NCBI RefSeq assembly: GCF_002286735.1
Contig: NZ_NRTA01000007.1
Coordinates: forward strand, 62,001-126,000
DNA length: 64,000 nucleotides
Reading direction: 5' to 3'
Origin: Leptolyngbya sp. BC1307
Lineage (GTDB): Bacteria > Cyanobacteriota > Cyanobacteriia > Phormidesmidales > Phormidesmidaceae
The position numbers and the translations under genes are program-made. The notes beneath the pieces are model-generated. The model was given only the letters and a program-made list of their open reading frames with translations. It had not been told where the DNA came from and searched no databases. Below, one piece after another: positions 11,529-17,119 of the stretch; the stretch's first letter is position 1, and each line of letters starts with the position of its first letter.

Positions 11529-12797
11529 TTAGGAAGTAGGAGAGTTGTCTGTGACAGTTGCTTTTACCGTGCCCTGGCTAAGCTGAATCTCTAGAGATGT
11601 ACCGGGCGGTAGCTGATCGGCGTGGGTGACGATTTGTTCTTCTGCTTTGACCAGCGCGTAGCCTCGTTTGAGTACGGCGGCTGGATCGAGGGCGGCTAAT
11701 TTTTCTTGCAGCAGCTGATGTTGATATTGAGCTTGCTGTAGCCGCTGGGTAAGCAGGGTAGTCAGTTGTTGCCGCTGCCAGCCGAGGTCACGCTGTCGCT
11801 GGACAACCTGACGATCTAGCTGGAGACGCTGTAACCGCGACTGTAGCGATCGCACCTGCTGCTGAGCTGTTTGCAGACGACTAGACAATAGTTGCCCCAG
11901 TCGCTGTAAATACTGCACCTGCTCACTATAGAGATCATCCAGGCTCGGGATCACTTGCTCGGCGGCAGCGGTGGGCGTATGAGCACAAACGTCGGCGACC
12001 AGGTCGGCAAGGGACTGGTCGCGCTCGTGACCAATCCCGGTGATTACTGGGATCGGTGATTGGGCGATCGCTAGCACCACCCGCTCATCGTCAAAACAGG
12101 CCAGATCTTCACTAGCCCCGCCCCCCCTCGCCAATAGCAGCACGTCGGCTCGGCCATCTTGGGCAACGCGGGCGATCGCCGCTGCAACGGAAGCGGGTGC
12201 CTGTAGCCCCTGTACGGTGGCCGGAGACAGTAAAATGCGCACGCCGGGGCTGCGCTGACTGAGCGTACGCTGAATATCTCCCCAAGCAGCCGCTTCGACG
12301 GAGGTGACGACCGCCAGCGTCTGCGGATAAGCCGGTAGCGGACGCTTGCGAGCGGCATCAAAAAGACCTTCGGCAGCCAGGCGCGATCGCAGCTGCCGGT
12401 AGCGCAATGCTTGCAGCCCTTCGCCTGCGGGTAACACCTGCCATACCGTGAGCTGATAAGATCCGCGCTTAGGATACAGCCGAATTTGCCCGAGCACAGT
12501 TACCTGCTCGCCTGCTGCCGGTAGCGTGGTTAGGCGGGGAAGCTGCGATCGCCACACCACGCAGTTCACCGCCGCAGAGCCATCGGGTTCTTGTAGGGTA
12601 AAAAAGCAGCCCTGGCGATGATTGTGGGTGCTAGACACCTCTCCAACCACCCAAATTTTTCGCAGCTGCGGATTCTCCTCTAACAGCAGCTTTAGGTAGT
12701 CTGTCAGCCCCGCTACGCCGACTGCCAGTTCGGCAGTTTGCTCAGACGCAATATTTATCATCAAAAAATACTTATCTGCCTTTCTAGTTTGAGCCAT
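11529..12797 (-). CDS. xseA: Exodeoxyribonuclease VII large subunit
   Basis: 422-aa catalytic subunit of exonuclease VII. The N-terminal OB-fold (LTDYLKLLLEENPQLRKIWVVGEVS) binds single-stranded DNA. The catalytic domain has VLLLARGGGASEDL, FDDERVVLAIAQSPIPVITGIGHERD and DLVADVCAHTPTAAAE. Next comes a long coiled coil (about 290-370) that carries XseB subunits, then a C-terminal strand with ILKRGYAL-like AVLKRGYALV. A second ATG at residue 13 (12761) gives a start closer to other family members; the first is kept because no ribosome site decides it. Confidence 0.93.
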   Translation of the reverse strand: MAQTRKADKYFLMINIASEQTAELAVGVAGLTDYLKLLLEENPQLRKIWVVGEVSSTHNHRQGCFFTLQEPDGSAAVNCVVWRSQLPRLTTLPAAGEQVTVLGQIRLYPKRGSYQLTVWQVLPAGEGLQALRYRQLRSRLAAEGLFDAARKRPLPAYPQTLAVVTSVEAAAWGDIQRTLSQRSPGVRILLSPATVQGLQAPASVAAAIARVAQDGRADVLLLARGGGASEDLACFDDERVVLAIAQSPIPVITGIGHERDQSLADLVADVCAHTPTAAAEQVIPSLDDLYSEQVQYLQRLGQLLSSRLQTAQQQVRSLQSRLQRLQLDRQVVQRQRDLGWQRQQLTTLLTQRLQQAQYQHQLLQEKLAALDPAAVLKRGYALVKAEEQIVTHADQLPPGTSLEIQLSQGTVKATVTDNSPTS

Positions 12798-13111: not shown

Positions 13112-13456
13112 TTAACCGCCAGAGTAAGCCGCTACTTCCTGCTCAGCCGGACTCACCTGATACTTGATCAAGTTGGCCAATTCCTGAAGCTGATTGATCG
13201 CTTCAGCTCCCTCTAACTTCATGAGCTCACGGTCATCGCGCATCTCTGTCCAGGTGATCCCATAGTCGGAGACCAGAAACCGAATCAAATGGTCTCCGCC
13301 CAAGCTCACCATAAAGGAAGCGCTATTAAGCTCCTCCCCGCAGGTATAGCAAGAGGCCAAATATCCTCTTTTCTCTAATACAACCGCCAGCGCTTTCAGG
13401 TTCAGAACGAGATCTTGAACAAACTGACGGTGCTGATCGGCAAGTCTGACAAACAT
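13112..13456 (-). CDS. DUF1815 family protein
   Basis: 114-aa cyanobacteria-specific DUF1815 protein of unknown function. It begins MFVRLADQHRQFVQDLVLNL and contains CYTCGEELNSASF with two cysteines, then LIRFLVSDYGITWTEMRDDRELMKLEGAEAI-type sequence, as in the family. It has no signal peptide or membrane segment and is probably a small soluble protein. It stands alone with long non-coding flanks on both sides, so it has its own promoter in the AT-rich region upstream. Confidence 0.85.
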   Translation of the reverse strand: MFVRLADQHRQFVQDLVLNLKALAVVLEKRGYLASCYTCGEELNSASFMVSLGGDHLIRFLVSDYGITWTEMRDDRELMKLEGAEAINQLQELANLIKYQVSPAEQEVAAYSGG

Positions 13457-13988
13457 TGTCTTTTCCTCTACACCATTTATTGGCTCTATGTAATTTACTT
13501 AATTCTTTTTTAATAACCTTCGTACAAAAATACCCCAGACTCCATAACACTGTCCAGGTGTGTCATGTTTTCGTACCCACTACAGTACCCACATATTGTA
13601 ACTTTTTGCAACAATTTTGTTGTGCTAGGTGACGTAAAGATATCCAGAATTTTTAAAAAAATCAAATTCAAAGCTACCAATCCGCTCAAGATGAAACTGT
13701 AGCGAATTTATCTAGCTTGGTCAGTGCCTGAGATCCACAGTGATATGGAGTAAAAGCTCGGCACCTGTGTATATATCAATCCCACCATTCCCCTTGTTCT
13801 AGCGCAACCGAAAGAAAAATGACGGGGTCTTACCTCTCAGGAAAATAAATATGACAAAAGTTGACATAACTACTTAGATAAGTATGCCTAGAGAAATACA
13901 TTGTTAGGAATAGGGCAGTTCTGTAAGACACTACCGGTAGCGACAGCGGTTCAGTGAAAAGGCTAGAAGTTAATAGTCGCAGTTAGTC
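13457..13988. other. AT-rich intergenic region upstream of DUF1815 gene
   Basis: 532 bp, clearly more AT-rich than the genes around it. It includes a direct repeat agtacccac near 13571-13592 and runs of A and T around 13600-13680. The DUF1815 promoter must lie near 13460-13620 on the minus strand. I could not identify an RNA gene; a small RNA is possible but not supported. Confidence 0.4.
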
Positions 13989-14068
13989 AAAGCCCAGTGT
14001 CCAGGCAAAGCCCAGTGTCCAGGCAAAGCCCAGTGTCCAGGCAAAGCCCAGTGTCCAGGCAAAGCCCA
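13989..14068. repeat. 18-bp tandem repeat, four perfect copies plus a partial
   Basis: Four perfect copies of aaagcccagtgtccaggc and 8 bp of a fifth, ending directly against the stop codon of the DUF2839 gene (minus strand, stop at 14069-14071). There are no spacers between units, so this is not a CRISPR array. Confidence 0.95.
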
Positions 14069-14284
14069 CTAATTAGTCAGCGTCCACCAGCCAAACCCAG
14101 GACCGATAAAACGAATAGTGAGCCACGCAGCAATCATCAAAATAATGCCAGCCCAAGCACCCTTAGTTGACCAGGAAACAAACTTAGTAGCGGTCTCTTT
14201 ACTGATGGGTACGCCTGGAATGACTGGCTTAGGTTTGCCGTAGTTTTCACCCAATGCCTCTTGCCGACGTTTAGATTCTCCCAT
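14069..14284 (-). CDS. DUF2839 domain small membrane protein
   Basis: 71-aa cyanobacterial DUF2839 protein. The start at ATG 14284 gives the family N-terminus MGESKRRQEALGENYGKP. A single transmembrane segment lies at about residues 43-62 (WAGIILMIAAWLTIRFIGP), and the protein ends GFGWWTLTN. The frame stays open upstream to 14359 but without family resemblance. Its function is unknown. The stop codon abuts an 18-bp tandem repeat array. Confidence 0.85.
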   Translation of the reverse strand: MGESKRRQEALGENYGKPKPVIPGVPISKETATKFVSWSTKGAWAGIILMIAAWLTIRFIGPGFGWWTLTN

Positions 14285-14380
14285 GGGCGCTACCAAGCTA
14301 GTGATTTCTGATGACGAAAGCGTCAAGATTAAATGTGTGCTGGCGGCTAGTTTTCTCACTGAGCCCGCATCCTAATCCAT

Positions 14381-14414
14381 CATAGCGAGCGATTGAGCAT
14401 AGCGAGCGATTGAG
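14381..14414. repeat. 17-bp tandem duplication
   Basis: Two perfect copies of catagcgagcgattgag in the region between the DinG-like gene and the DUF2839 gene, both on the minus strand. Confidence 0.85.
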
Positions 14415-14509
14415 CATGAGAAAACTCTGGCAGTGCCCCGGCTAAATTAGCATTTGTTTAGAGAATATCTGTACAGGGAGATAGCGAGCATTTGTGCTGG
14501 CCGGTCGGG

Positions 14510-16135
14510 CTAGTCAGCTATTGACTCAGGCGAAGTGCTTTCAGCGATGAACCAAGTGAGATCGAGATAGCTACTGCGGGCTGCGGGGCTTAGGGCCGAC
14601 ATAATCTGAGCGCCATAGCTGCGATAGTTGACTCGGTTATCTAGCAGTGCGACTACCCCTTGGCGCGATCGCACAGGGGCCACGGCATGCTGTAGCTCAT
14701 TCAAAGCAGTAGGCAGCAAATACGCTTTGAACCAGTCCTGGCGGCGACGCTTGTAGGCGGCTACTCGGCCTGCCACTAGCGGATCTTCGAGTGATGGGAT
14801 GGGCAAAGTCGTGATAATCAGCAGATCTGGAATGACTGACTCTGCCTGGTGAGTCCGCCAATACTCCCAACCGGTGATCAAAATGCCCTGACTGTCTATC
14901 GGTACTTCTACCCGTACCCGTGAGCCATATTCAGCAGCCAAGATAGTAGCTAACTGCGCTTTGAGCGGCATATCTCCGACAATGATGACGGTCGGGCCAG
15001 CACCCAACCTGCTATCTGCTGTCTGAACGCTGCTGCCGCCGAGACTTTTAGCGCCAATCAGTGAGCAGATTTCTTGCCGTACGGCTCCCTGATAGTGGCT
15101 GGTATTAGGCATAGGTAGGCGATCTGGCAGATAAAGCTGTATCAAATCGCTGTGTCGGTCGGGGCCGAAGCGCAGACAGGTCATTTCGCCGAGGCCGAGG
15201 CGATCGCGATACCGCTCTGCTTTGGAGTCCGTATCTAAGGCTGCGCCAATCAACACGACTGGCTGCTGCGCCCAGACTGGCGCTAGGCTTTCTTGGAGAT
15301 CAATCGGGCCACAGTGCAGCGCTACACTGCCCAATTTACGGTTAACGCTACTCCAGGCTAACCGCTCCATCTGCGAAAACCGCTGCCAAAACTGCTGCCA
15401 CACAGGCGGCAGTCTACCGCGATCGCCGTATGCTTGAAGCAGCTCGTATAGCTCGTACAGCAGGGTCTTTTCCGGTTCTTCTATGAGATGACAGCCGTAG
15501 GGATTGGCCGGATGCTGAAAAATGGCATGGGTGATGCGGACGCGCATGTCTCGAATGAAGGTGCGCTGACTAGGATAGGCCAGCATTAGCCCTTCCCAGT
15601 GCTGCGGCAATAAGACGACGCTCAGCTGCTGGCGGGCCCACCGTTCTAAGTCGCTAGCCCCGTCTATGAGCGTGAAAACTCCAGCGGGAAACCGGCTGAG
15701 CGGGCCAGCTGAGTGGCTATCAGTAGAGGGGGAAGGGGTTAGCGAGGTCGTCAGGCGATCGCGCAGCCAGCCCTGAGCAGAGGTCACTAGCAGCCCCCGA
15801 AAATCTTCACCGGGCCAGCGATCGCCGGTCTGTACGGGCTTGACCACAGGTAGCCCTTGCTGCAAATTTGGAATATCTTGCTGAAGCACGCTCTTGAGTA
15901 TGTCTTCTGGCAAGGCGAGCACAGCGGGCTCTGGCCACAGCAGCGCCGGAATCAAATAGCTCAGTCGGTAGCTGCCCTGGTAAGCGGCCAGACTATCTGG
16001 CTGCATCAGCGCACTACGGCCTATTCGCATGGCTCTTGCGACCAGCCTGGCCATCGTCAGATGGTGAGGCCACTGGGTATGCCCTTGTTCTCTAAGATAA
16101 GCCCGAAGGCGCTGATGAACTTCTGCTTCGATCAC
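14510..16135 (-). CDS. DinG-like helicase homologue lacking Walker motifs (cyanobacterial type)
   Basis: 541-aa protein resembling the DinG/XPD-type superfamily 2 helicases. The N-terminus, MIEAEVHQRLRAYLREQG then HHLTMARLVARAM, and the late motifs LPIPSLEDPLVAGR and GVVALLDNRVNYRSYG match the DinG C-terminal pattern. The Walker A position (residues 54-64) reads SYRLSYLIPA with no GKS/GKT. The DEAH position reads LIDGASDLER. The usual QxxGRxxR motif is degraded to LQHAVAPVRSRQG. ATP hydrolysis is therefore doubtful. I recall similar proteins in other cyanobacteria annotated as ATP-dependent helicases. It is divergent from tyrA. Confidence 0.65.
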   Translation of the reverse strand: MIEAEVHQRLRAYLREQGHTQWPHHLTMARLVARAMRIGRSALMQPDSLAAYQGSYRLSYLIPALLWPEPAVLALPEDILKSVLQQDIPNLQQGLPVVKPVQTGDRWPGEDFRGLLVTSAQGWLRDRLTTSLTPSPSTDSHSAGPLSRFPAGVFTLIDGASDLERWARQQLSVVLLPQHWEGLMLAYPSQRTFIRDMRVRITHAIFQHPANPYGCHLIEEPEKTLLYELYELLQAYGDRGRLPPVWQQFWQRFSQMERLAWSSVNRKLGSVALHCGPIDLQESLAPVWAQQPVVLIGAALDTDSKAERYRDRLGLGEMTCLRFGPDRHSDLIQLYLPDRLPMPNTSHYQGAVRQEICSLIGAKSLGGSSVQTADSRLGAGPTVIIVGDMPLKAQLATILAAEYGSRVRVEVPIDSQGILITGWEYWRTHQAESVIPDLLIITTLPIPSLEDPLVAGRVAAYKRRRQDWFKAYLLPTALNELQHAVAPVRSRQGVVALLDNRVNYRSYGAQIMSALSPAARSSYLDLTWFIAESTSPESIAD

Positions 16136-16276
16136 TGGCGTAGGCGTAGGTTGGTCTGGGTGAAGTGTCCTTAATGATGGCTTTCATTGTGACACATCCA
16201 TCTCGCTGCTCCCGTAGGAAAGATCAGGGCCAATGTCAGGAATCAAACAAGAATAGCGGATAGTGAGAGACGGTTG

Positions 16277-17119
16277 ATGGATATTGGGATTGTTGGATTA
16301 GGGCTGATTGGCGGCTGCTTGGGGCTAGACTTTAAAGCGCTCGGGCACCGCGTCTATGGGGTTGCTCGTCGGTCAGAAACCTGCACTCAGGCACTCAGCC
16401 GTCAGATGGTAGATACGGCCAGCTCAGACTTTGCCGCGCTCAGACCCTGCGAGGTGGTATTTATCTGCACGCCGATCGCCACGCTGGTGCCGGTGGTGGC
16501 TGATCTAGCTCAGGTGCTTGCGCCGGGAACCATCGTCACCGATGTGGGCTCAGTCAAGGCCGCCGTCGTTGACAAGGCGACACGACACTGGCCTCAATTT
16601 GTCGGCGGCCATCCGATGAGTGGTAAAAGCGAAGCGGGTCTGGAGGCAGCCGAACCCGGTATTTTTCGCGATCGCCCCTATGTGATTACTCCGCTTCCCC
16701 AAACTGACCCCACCGCAATCAAAACAGTAGAGCAGCTAGCTCAGCAGCTGGGTTCCCAGCTTTACCGTTGTTCTCCAGCAGCCCACGATCGGGCGGTGGC
16801 CTGGATTTCTCACCTACCGGTCATGGTCAGCGCCAGCTTGATCAGCGCTGCTCTGCAAGAACCGGACCCAGCGGTGCTGACATTAGCACAGCAGCTCGCT
16901 AGCTCTGGGTTTCGAGATACCAGTCGAGTTGGCGGCGGCAATCCGGAGCTAGGGCTGATGATGGCGCAGTACAACCGGGATGCGGTGCTGCGATCGCTCA
17001 GACAATATCAGCAGGCGATCGCCACTACCCTTACCCAAATCGAAGCCCAAGACTGGCCCGCCCTATCTCAGCAGCTCCAGGCCGCTCACCAAGCCCGACC
17101 TCACTTCGTCCCCGACTGA
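16277..17119 (+). CDS. tyrA: Prephenate/arogenate dehydrogenase
   Basis: 280-aa tyrosine-biosynthesis dehydrogenase. The Rossmann signature GIVGLGLIGG is at the N-terminus (ATG at 16277; a TTG lies one codon earlier). It is followed by VFICTPI, VTDVGSVKAAVV, GGHPMSGKSEAGLEAA and the substrate-region HDRAVAWISHLPVM. There is no ACT or chorismate mutase domain, and the length is that of cyanobacterial TyrA. In cyanobacteria this family mostly uses L-arogenate with NADP; that preference is known of the family, not visible here. It converges with a sensor kinase. Confidence 0.92.
   Translation: MDIGIVGLGLIGGCLGLDFKALGHRVYGVARRSETCTQALSRQMVDTASSDFAALRPCEVVFICTPIATLVPVVADLAQVLAPGTIVTDVGSVKAAVVDKATRHWPQFVGGHPMSGKSEAGLEAAEPGIFRDRPYVITPLPQTDPTAIKTVEQLAQQLGSQLYRCSPAAHDRAVAWISHLPVMVSASLISAALQEPDPAVLTLAQQLASSGFRDTSRVGGGNPELGLMMAQYNRDAVLRSLRQYQQAIATTLTQIEAQDWPALSQQLQAAHQARPHFVPD

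Follow-up and report, generated by a model that had tools for sequence, protein, structure and literature searches.

The gene at 14510-16135 of the 64,000-nucleotide stretch of Leptolyngbya sp. BC1307 analysed here (the window) encodes an old pseudohelicase and is not a gene in decay. Its protein, predicted to adopt the DinG/XPD fold, is present in 345 of 388 genomes drawn from the class and yet lacks the parts that make a helicase; the literature searched gave no function for it. By the features compared, it fits the short-type DinG, or sDinG, named in 2025 (Cheng, PMC11981726). The kind is therefore already in print, and what is added here is a class-wide census, the constraint on the gene, its origin and the partial retention of its DNA elements. 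The explanation that we prefer, to which we give an even chance, is that of a pseudohelicase of XPD/DinG fold and sDinG type that would derive from a YoaA/DinG-like Fe-S helicase and act as a static DNA-binding subunit or adaptor.

The gene, its profile matches and its predicted fold

The open frame of 541 codons (16135..14510, GTG start) lies on the minus strand, a point absent from the first-pass annotation. Pfam Helicase_C_2 matches residues 438-517 of the protein with 26.6 bits (cut-off 25.3), and the best NCBIfam match, the YoaA model, extends over residues 250-523 with 68 bits, far below its cut-off of 680. Library models would call this gene a helicase, though the helicase-making parts are absent. 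In its own genome, the sole match of the protein at E up to 1 is its own gene, and the YoaA model finds this gene plus one stray match of 17.8 bits. Promoter and terminator scans of 13900-16500 returned 0 sites, compared with 1.3 and 1.7 in shuffled sequences. Coordinates of the gene, its elements and its neighbours are given in Table 1.

Table 1. Features of the sDinG-type gene and its neighbours (positions in the window; residues of the 541-aa protein).
Feature	Position	Strand	Basis
sDinG-type pseudohelicase, 541 aa, GTG start at 16135	14510..16135	-	frame, profiles, predicted fold
Degenerate P-loop region, residues 41-66, canonical GTGTGKS replaced	15938..16015	-	alignments, model
Walker B strand with degenerate DEAH, residues 155-165 (TLIDGASDLER)	15641..15673	-	alignments
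Shortened arch-like region and lead into motor domain 2, residues 176-292, borders approximate	15260..15610	-	alignments, model
P motif equivalent, residues 445-450 (PIPSLE); E. coli DinG 614-619	14786..14803	-	alignment
DWF, residues 467-469; F469 aligned with E. coli DinG F638	14729..14737	-	alignment
Degenerate motif VI, residues 481-495 (LQHAVAPVRSRQGVV)	14651..14695	-	alignments
Conserved segment after motif VI, residues 498-509, invariant D499, R501, R505, G508	14609..14644	-	alignments
DUF2839 gene, next gene downstream of sDinG	14069..14359	-	Pfam
DUF1815 gene, neighbour	13112..13456	-	Pfam
Exonuclease VII large subunit gene (xseA), neighbour	11529..12797	-	Pfam
Prephenate dehydrogenase gene, divergent neighbour	16274..17119	+	Pfam

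A sequence search of solved structures with the window protein gave no match at E up to 1, so the fold assignment comes from the model only. AlphaFold2, supplied with 67 sequences (the window protein and 66 of the 80 named loci), returned a model with pLDDT 90.1 and pTM 0.87. When this model was used in Foldseek, the first 17 solved matches were DinG and CasDinG, followed by XPD; the best match was E. coli DinG (6fws, 1.0e-17), and TM-scores for the first four chains were 0.59-0.70 by query length. Comparison of the model with S. aureus DinG in VIA-align gave a Z of 30.3 over 487 residues at 3.7 A. Two RecA-like motor domains in the DinG arrangement are present in the predicted model, and its P-loop region comprises a strand (residues 42-45), an extra helix (48-53) and a further helix (57-66). 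The proposal of the first-pass annotation that the protein is a derivative of the helicase is thus supported by the predicted DinG/XPD fold, and the contrary case that it named, a structure without a helicase fold, is not what the model gives. In the arch region, alignment alone indicates that a 38-column stretch of a canonical paralogue is absent from the window protein, which is compatible with a compact arch.

According to the available part of the review, sDinG consists of MD1, arch and MD2 only, has no Fe-S or pseudo-Fe-S domain, lacks the ATP residues and has a compact arch; in the Nostoc protein the ATP site appears to be occupied by an added helix, inserted between strand 1 and helix 3 (PMC11981726). 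With these proteins the window protein has in common the MD1/arch/MD2-only layout, the absence of Fe-S and of ATP residues and, in the predicted model, the extra helix. The spread differs: that part of the review reports sDinG from Nostocales, Chroococcidiopsidales and Pleurocapsales, each through one representative strain, whereas our census of the class includes Gloeobacter-like genomes and genomes of 1.6-1.7 Mb. Functional studies of sDinG are not cited in the same part of the review, which is the only work among the literature matches listed to treat the protein; no later work on sDinG was found among them. DinG is not named in the main text of a Synechococcus elongatus UV screen or of an essentiality paper, and its count in the available portion of a cyanobacterial repair survey is 0.

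Motifs lost and elements retained

The reported lack of Walker A, DEAH and motif VI arginines in the window protein is confirmed by alignments and motif counts, and it extends to the homologues, where the state of the ATP pocket had been proposed as a check. Motifs were counted in 168 distinct frames of homologues, of which two are fragments that do not cover the P-loop: G.GK[ST] in the P-loop stretch, DE.H (DEAH box) and motif VI GR.[IVL]R were each found in 0 of 168. As a positive control we used 14 canonical proteins of the same phylum, 13 of them distinct, which carried G.GK[ST] in 14/14, DE.H in 14/14 and GR.[IVL]R in 13/14 cases, the lone exception (L223) being a truncated frame; E. coli YoaA and E. 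coli DinG were positive for all three. Traces of the motifs are rare in the homologues: an isolated GK[ST] within the P-loop stretch, a Q..GR and a D.AH occur once each, and a looser G....GK[ST] is seen elsewhere in the protein in three of the 168. Intact Walker motifs, which the first-pass annotation had named as a finding that would refute its reading, were seen only in separate canonical proteins outside the degenerate clade.

An intact YoaA-type protein encoded in a Gloeobacter-like genome (L051) served as reference. In the alignment to it, neither the window protein nor three of its kin have the P-loop GTGTGKS, the DEAH catalytic glutamate or the motif VI arginines, and the four-cysteine Fe-S stretch has no counterpart in them. 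Between residues 95 and 158 there is no cysteine in 142 of the 168 homologues, one in 25 and two in a single homologue. The missing Fe-S insertion is a feature that the earlier description did not mention.

Comparison with known relatives places these losses in context. YoaA, the E. coli Fe-S helicase that pairs with HolC, has Walker A, DEAH, Fe-S cysteines and motif VI arginines, whereas the window protein is without all four; the available part of the YoaA literature states that Walker A and Fe-S residues are needed in vivo. DinG of E. coli and S. aureus shares with the window protein the overall predicted fold and the positions of the P motif and F638, but has the ATP site, the Fe-S domain and the R117/R211 contacts that the window protein lacks. 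CasDinG of type IV CRISPR shares the DinG fold without Fe-S cysteines and, unlike the window protein, keeps the ATPase residues, as stated in the part of the review available (PMC11981726). The PADLOC model PDLC01439 (typeIV_DinG) scores 106.9 bits with the window protein and 588 bits with E. coli YoaA; the model recognises DinG/YoaA proteins in general, and we rejected a type IV CRISPR reading for that reason. Four window neighbours were typed with Pfam (xseA, DUF1815, DUF2839 and prephenate dehydrogenase), and no cas genes were recognised among the window neighbours inspected. As a side observation, PDLC01439 could mislabel sDinG as CRISPR type IV.

The late DinG motifs, quoted earlier as preserved, are both present in the window protein, LPIPSLEDPLVAGR at residues 444-457 and LLDNRVNYRSYG at residues 497-508. 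Thirteen residues are invariant in 168/168 rows (P343, L391, A400, G404, P445, W468, F469, P475, D499, R501, R505, G508 and P517), and twelve of them lie within 391-517, that is, in motor domain 2. In E. coli DinG, the available part of the source describes residues 614-619 as the P motif and F638 as stacking on deoxyribose. Within the P motif, the position of E. coli F615 is F in 6 of 32 degenerate rows and otherwise I (16), L (9) or V (1). The Fe-S/HD1 contact R117 of E. coli DinG corresponds to a gap in 32/32 degenerate rows, and R211 to a gap in 29/32, the rest being acidic. The DNA-touching motor-domain-2 elements of E. coli DinG survive in part, which would favour ATP-independent DNA binding. 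The positions of F469, W468 and P445 are also the rule in canonical relatives (12/12 rows with letters), so that their conservation may reflect the fold no less than DNA binding, and folding may be its only cause.

Spread, constraint and origin

A homologue was found in 38/38 genomes (the window's own and 37 relatives). In the phylum draw of 386 genomes there were 196 matches, comprising 183 of the 186 class members and 13 genomes outside the class; the three class members without the gene belong to one genus. The class draw left 43 misses among its 388 genomes, and of the 20 listed 18 belong to a single family (f36), the other two being genomes that are 61% and 87% complete. Both draws, and likewise the scan of the phylum draw with the YoaA model, scored no more than three candidates in each genome, so that an individual miss may be a false one; the re-check of the phylum-draw misses scored all candidates. 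Both draws contain genomes of 1.6-1.7 Mb that keep the gene. The suggestion of the first-pass annotation that the protein is possibly kept across cyanobacteria is well borne out by these counts (38/38, 183/186 and 345/388). Loci titled Komarekiella, Richelia and Roholtiella (L118, L129 and L133), which we take to be members of Nostocales, carry full-length homologues at 49-50%.

In family f36 (G224, G312, G375, G465 and others), which includes Pseudanabaena sp. PCC 7367, sDinG is missing and hence dispensable; a 20-kb segment of G465 is identical to a plasmid of Pseudanabaena sp. PCC 7367. The three f36 genomes of the phylum draw had no match to the YoaA model either. This family provides a natural knockout and thus a natural comparison, and where sDinG is present in transformable cyanobacteria a knockout would be a direct test. 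A mobile or phage origin was considered and dropped, since none of ten pattern matches in viral contigs was confirmed and plasmids gave no match at E 0.01; the window protein had no match in PHROGs.

The gene is under purifying selection and strongly constrained. Median dN/dS over 34 non-overlapping close pairs was 0.100 for residues 1-240 and 0.069 for residues 241-531, and it stayed below 0.35 in every one of these pairs. The earlier argument that an intact 541-codon frame speaks against simple decay is strengthened by this low dN/dS and by the homologues, as the same motif losses in 168 distinct frames are not chance decay in one genome.

In a quick maximum-likelihood tree of 47 rows, all 32 degenerate rows form one clade (SH-aLRT 100), within which a Gloeobacter-like row branches first and a Thermostichus-like row next, an order that fits vertical descent. 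The tree comes from a quick search and includes 15 rows with odd letter make-up. We chose E. coli DinG as its root, and for this reason it is no test of whether YoaA is nearer than DinG. The stem of the clade amounts to 2.2 changes per column, and its place among canonical YoaA/DinG proteins is unsure. As all degenerate copies, the Gloeobacter-like ones included, make up one clade, we infer that the ATP engine and the Fe-S domain had already been lost when the last common ancestor of living oxygenic cyanobacteria arose, and that the protein has been maintained by selection ever since.

In the phylum draw, 13 genomes from outside the class have canonical YoaA-type proteins (272-580 bits), 11 of them at full length, and no class member in this draw scores better than 2e-22 with the YoaA model. 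DEAD_2 (PF06733) reached only 25 of the 386 genomes at 19-30 bits and was too insensitive, so NF053712 was used instead. All nine genomes of the Gloeobacter-like order carry the degenerate gene, while canonical YoaA-type proteins of at least 450 bits were found in seven of the nine and a fragment in one more. Intact-looking YoaA-type helicases (L051 818-2995 and L246-L250, motifs checked in L051 only) are encoded in such genomes in addition to the dead sDinG. The sDinG copies of this order (6/9) and of G026 still match the P-loop portion of the YoaA profile weakly (22-31 bits), which suggests that erosion was gradual.

Possible role and gene neighbourhood

In the preferred explanation, the ancestor would have been a YoaA/DinG-like Fe-S helicase that lost ATP binding and hydrolysis together with its Fe-S domain. 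Motor domain 2, with the P motif and the deoxyribose-stacking phenylalanine, would hold single-stranded or junction DNA with no translocation, and the eroded domain 1 and the short arch may offer protein-binding surfaces. DNA binding through motor domain 2 is our best guess; we rate it about as likely as a protein scaffold and other roles taken together. A more specific version, which we offer tentatively and consider rather doubtful in its full form, is that sDinG is a core subunit of cyanobacterial DNA transactions. It would be an XPD-type clamp that no longer translocates, holds single-stranded DNA with motor domain 2 at stalled forks or recombination intermediates and recruits cyanobacterium-specific partners. 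In the ancestor of oxygenic phototrophs such a clamp would have taken the place of the Fe-S enzyme, of which an active copy would survive in the Gloeobacter line.

By analogy, the protein could serve in a replication or repair complex much as the dead helicase-like domains of RecC and AddB do. These domains are superfamily 1 folds inside helicase-nuclease complexes and take part in Chi recognition. Like sDinG they have helicase-like folds, and in the part of the literature available theirs are described as serving DNA recognition and not as motors. We know of no helicase-nuclease complex of the RecC/AddB kind for sDinG. Alongside RecC and AddB, sDinG would be a case of a dead helicase fold from superfamily 2.

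Several other readings have to be weighed against a static DNA-binding subunit. The fold could be kept purely as a docking platform within a complex and not itself touch DNA, a reading to which we assign a sizeable minority of the probability. It is consistent with the loss of the Fe-S/HD1 DNA contacts and with the AlphaFold3 model in the available part of the review, which accommodated DNA only partly and scored poorly (PMC11981726), and the E. coli relative YoaA is described in the accessible part of its source as binding HolC through its C terminus. The concentration of invariant residues in motor domain 2, P445 and W468-F469 among them, argues against it, and a HolC-like arrangement offers no known partner: HolC (PF04364) was found in none of 25 genomes, among them that of the window, with E. 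coli and Caulobacter controls positive, and the YoaA-HolC analogy was rejected for this reason. In four genomes (G058, G063, G050 and G080) a canonical YoaA-type helicase is present with no HolC match; the E. coli pairing of YoaA with HolC may not be general. A protein that binds or hydrolyses nucleotides in an atypical pocket might be read from the Walker B aspartate kept in 146/168 homologues, a glutamate at the next column in 10/168 and an arginine at column 57, beside the P-loop, in 134/168, but the uniform loss of the P-loop and motif VI signatures and the extra helix predicted at residues 48-53, as in the Nostoc protein (PMC11981726), make this reading quite improbable. We find it hardly credible that the gene is decaying into a pseudogene or is a remnant about to be lost, although its catalytic motifs are lost, one family lacks it and 15 among the phylum-draw matches listed carry one stop flag. 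Those 15 keep open frames of 484-668 aa, so the flag is most likely a natural end, and both the low dN/dS medians and the retention in genomes of 1.6-1.7 Mb speak against decay.

The remaining alternative, a regulator of another helicase or nuclease such as a dimer partner or a fork-occupying decoy, bears on the gene neighbourhood, for which 101 regions were compared (80 named loci, 20 deep loci and the window), many of them cut by contig ends and the named loci leaning to near relatives. DUF2839 lies downstream on the same strand in 67/101 regions, prephenate dehydrogenase is divergent upstream in 50/101 and DUF1815 follows on the same strand in 38/101; among the 20 deep loci alone, DUF2839 is found in 5, prephenate dehydrogenase in 7 and recA in 3. 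A regulatory role would agree with the kinship to repair helicases and with recA convergent downstream in 12 regions and xseA following in 10, the window being one of the latter. These links are a minority in a sample that leans to near relatives, none of the genes looked at was seen to track the presence of sDinG, and we consider such a role unlikely. The neighbourhood points to no clear pathway. DUF2839 was rejected as an obligate partner, as the three g80 genomes that lack sDinG still have it and as elsewhere, for example in G034, the two genes are far apart. Near the window locus there are also two kinase-like frames and a frame presumed by eye to be LepA-like, the kinase-like assignment likewise being presumptive. 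In three regions (L224, L232 and L233) of family f2, whose genomes are small, the gene order is prephenate dehydrogenase, sDinG, DUF2839 and recA, with recA 285-523 bases from the end of sDinG.
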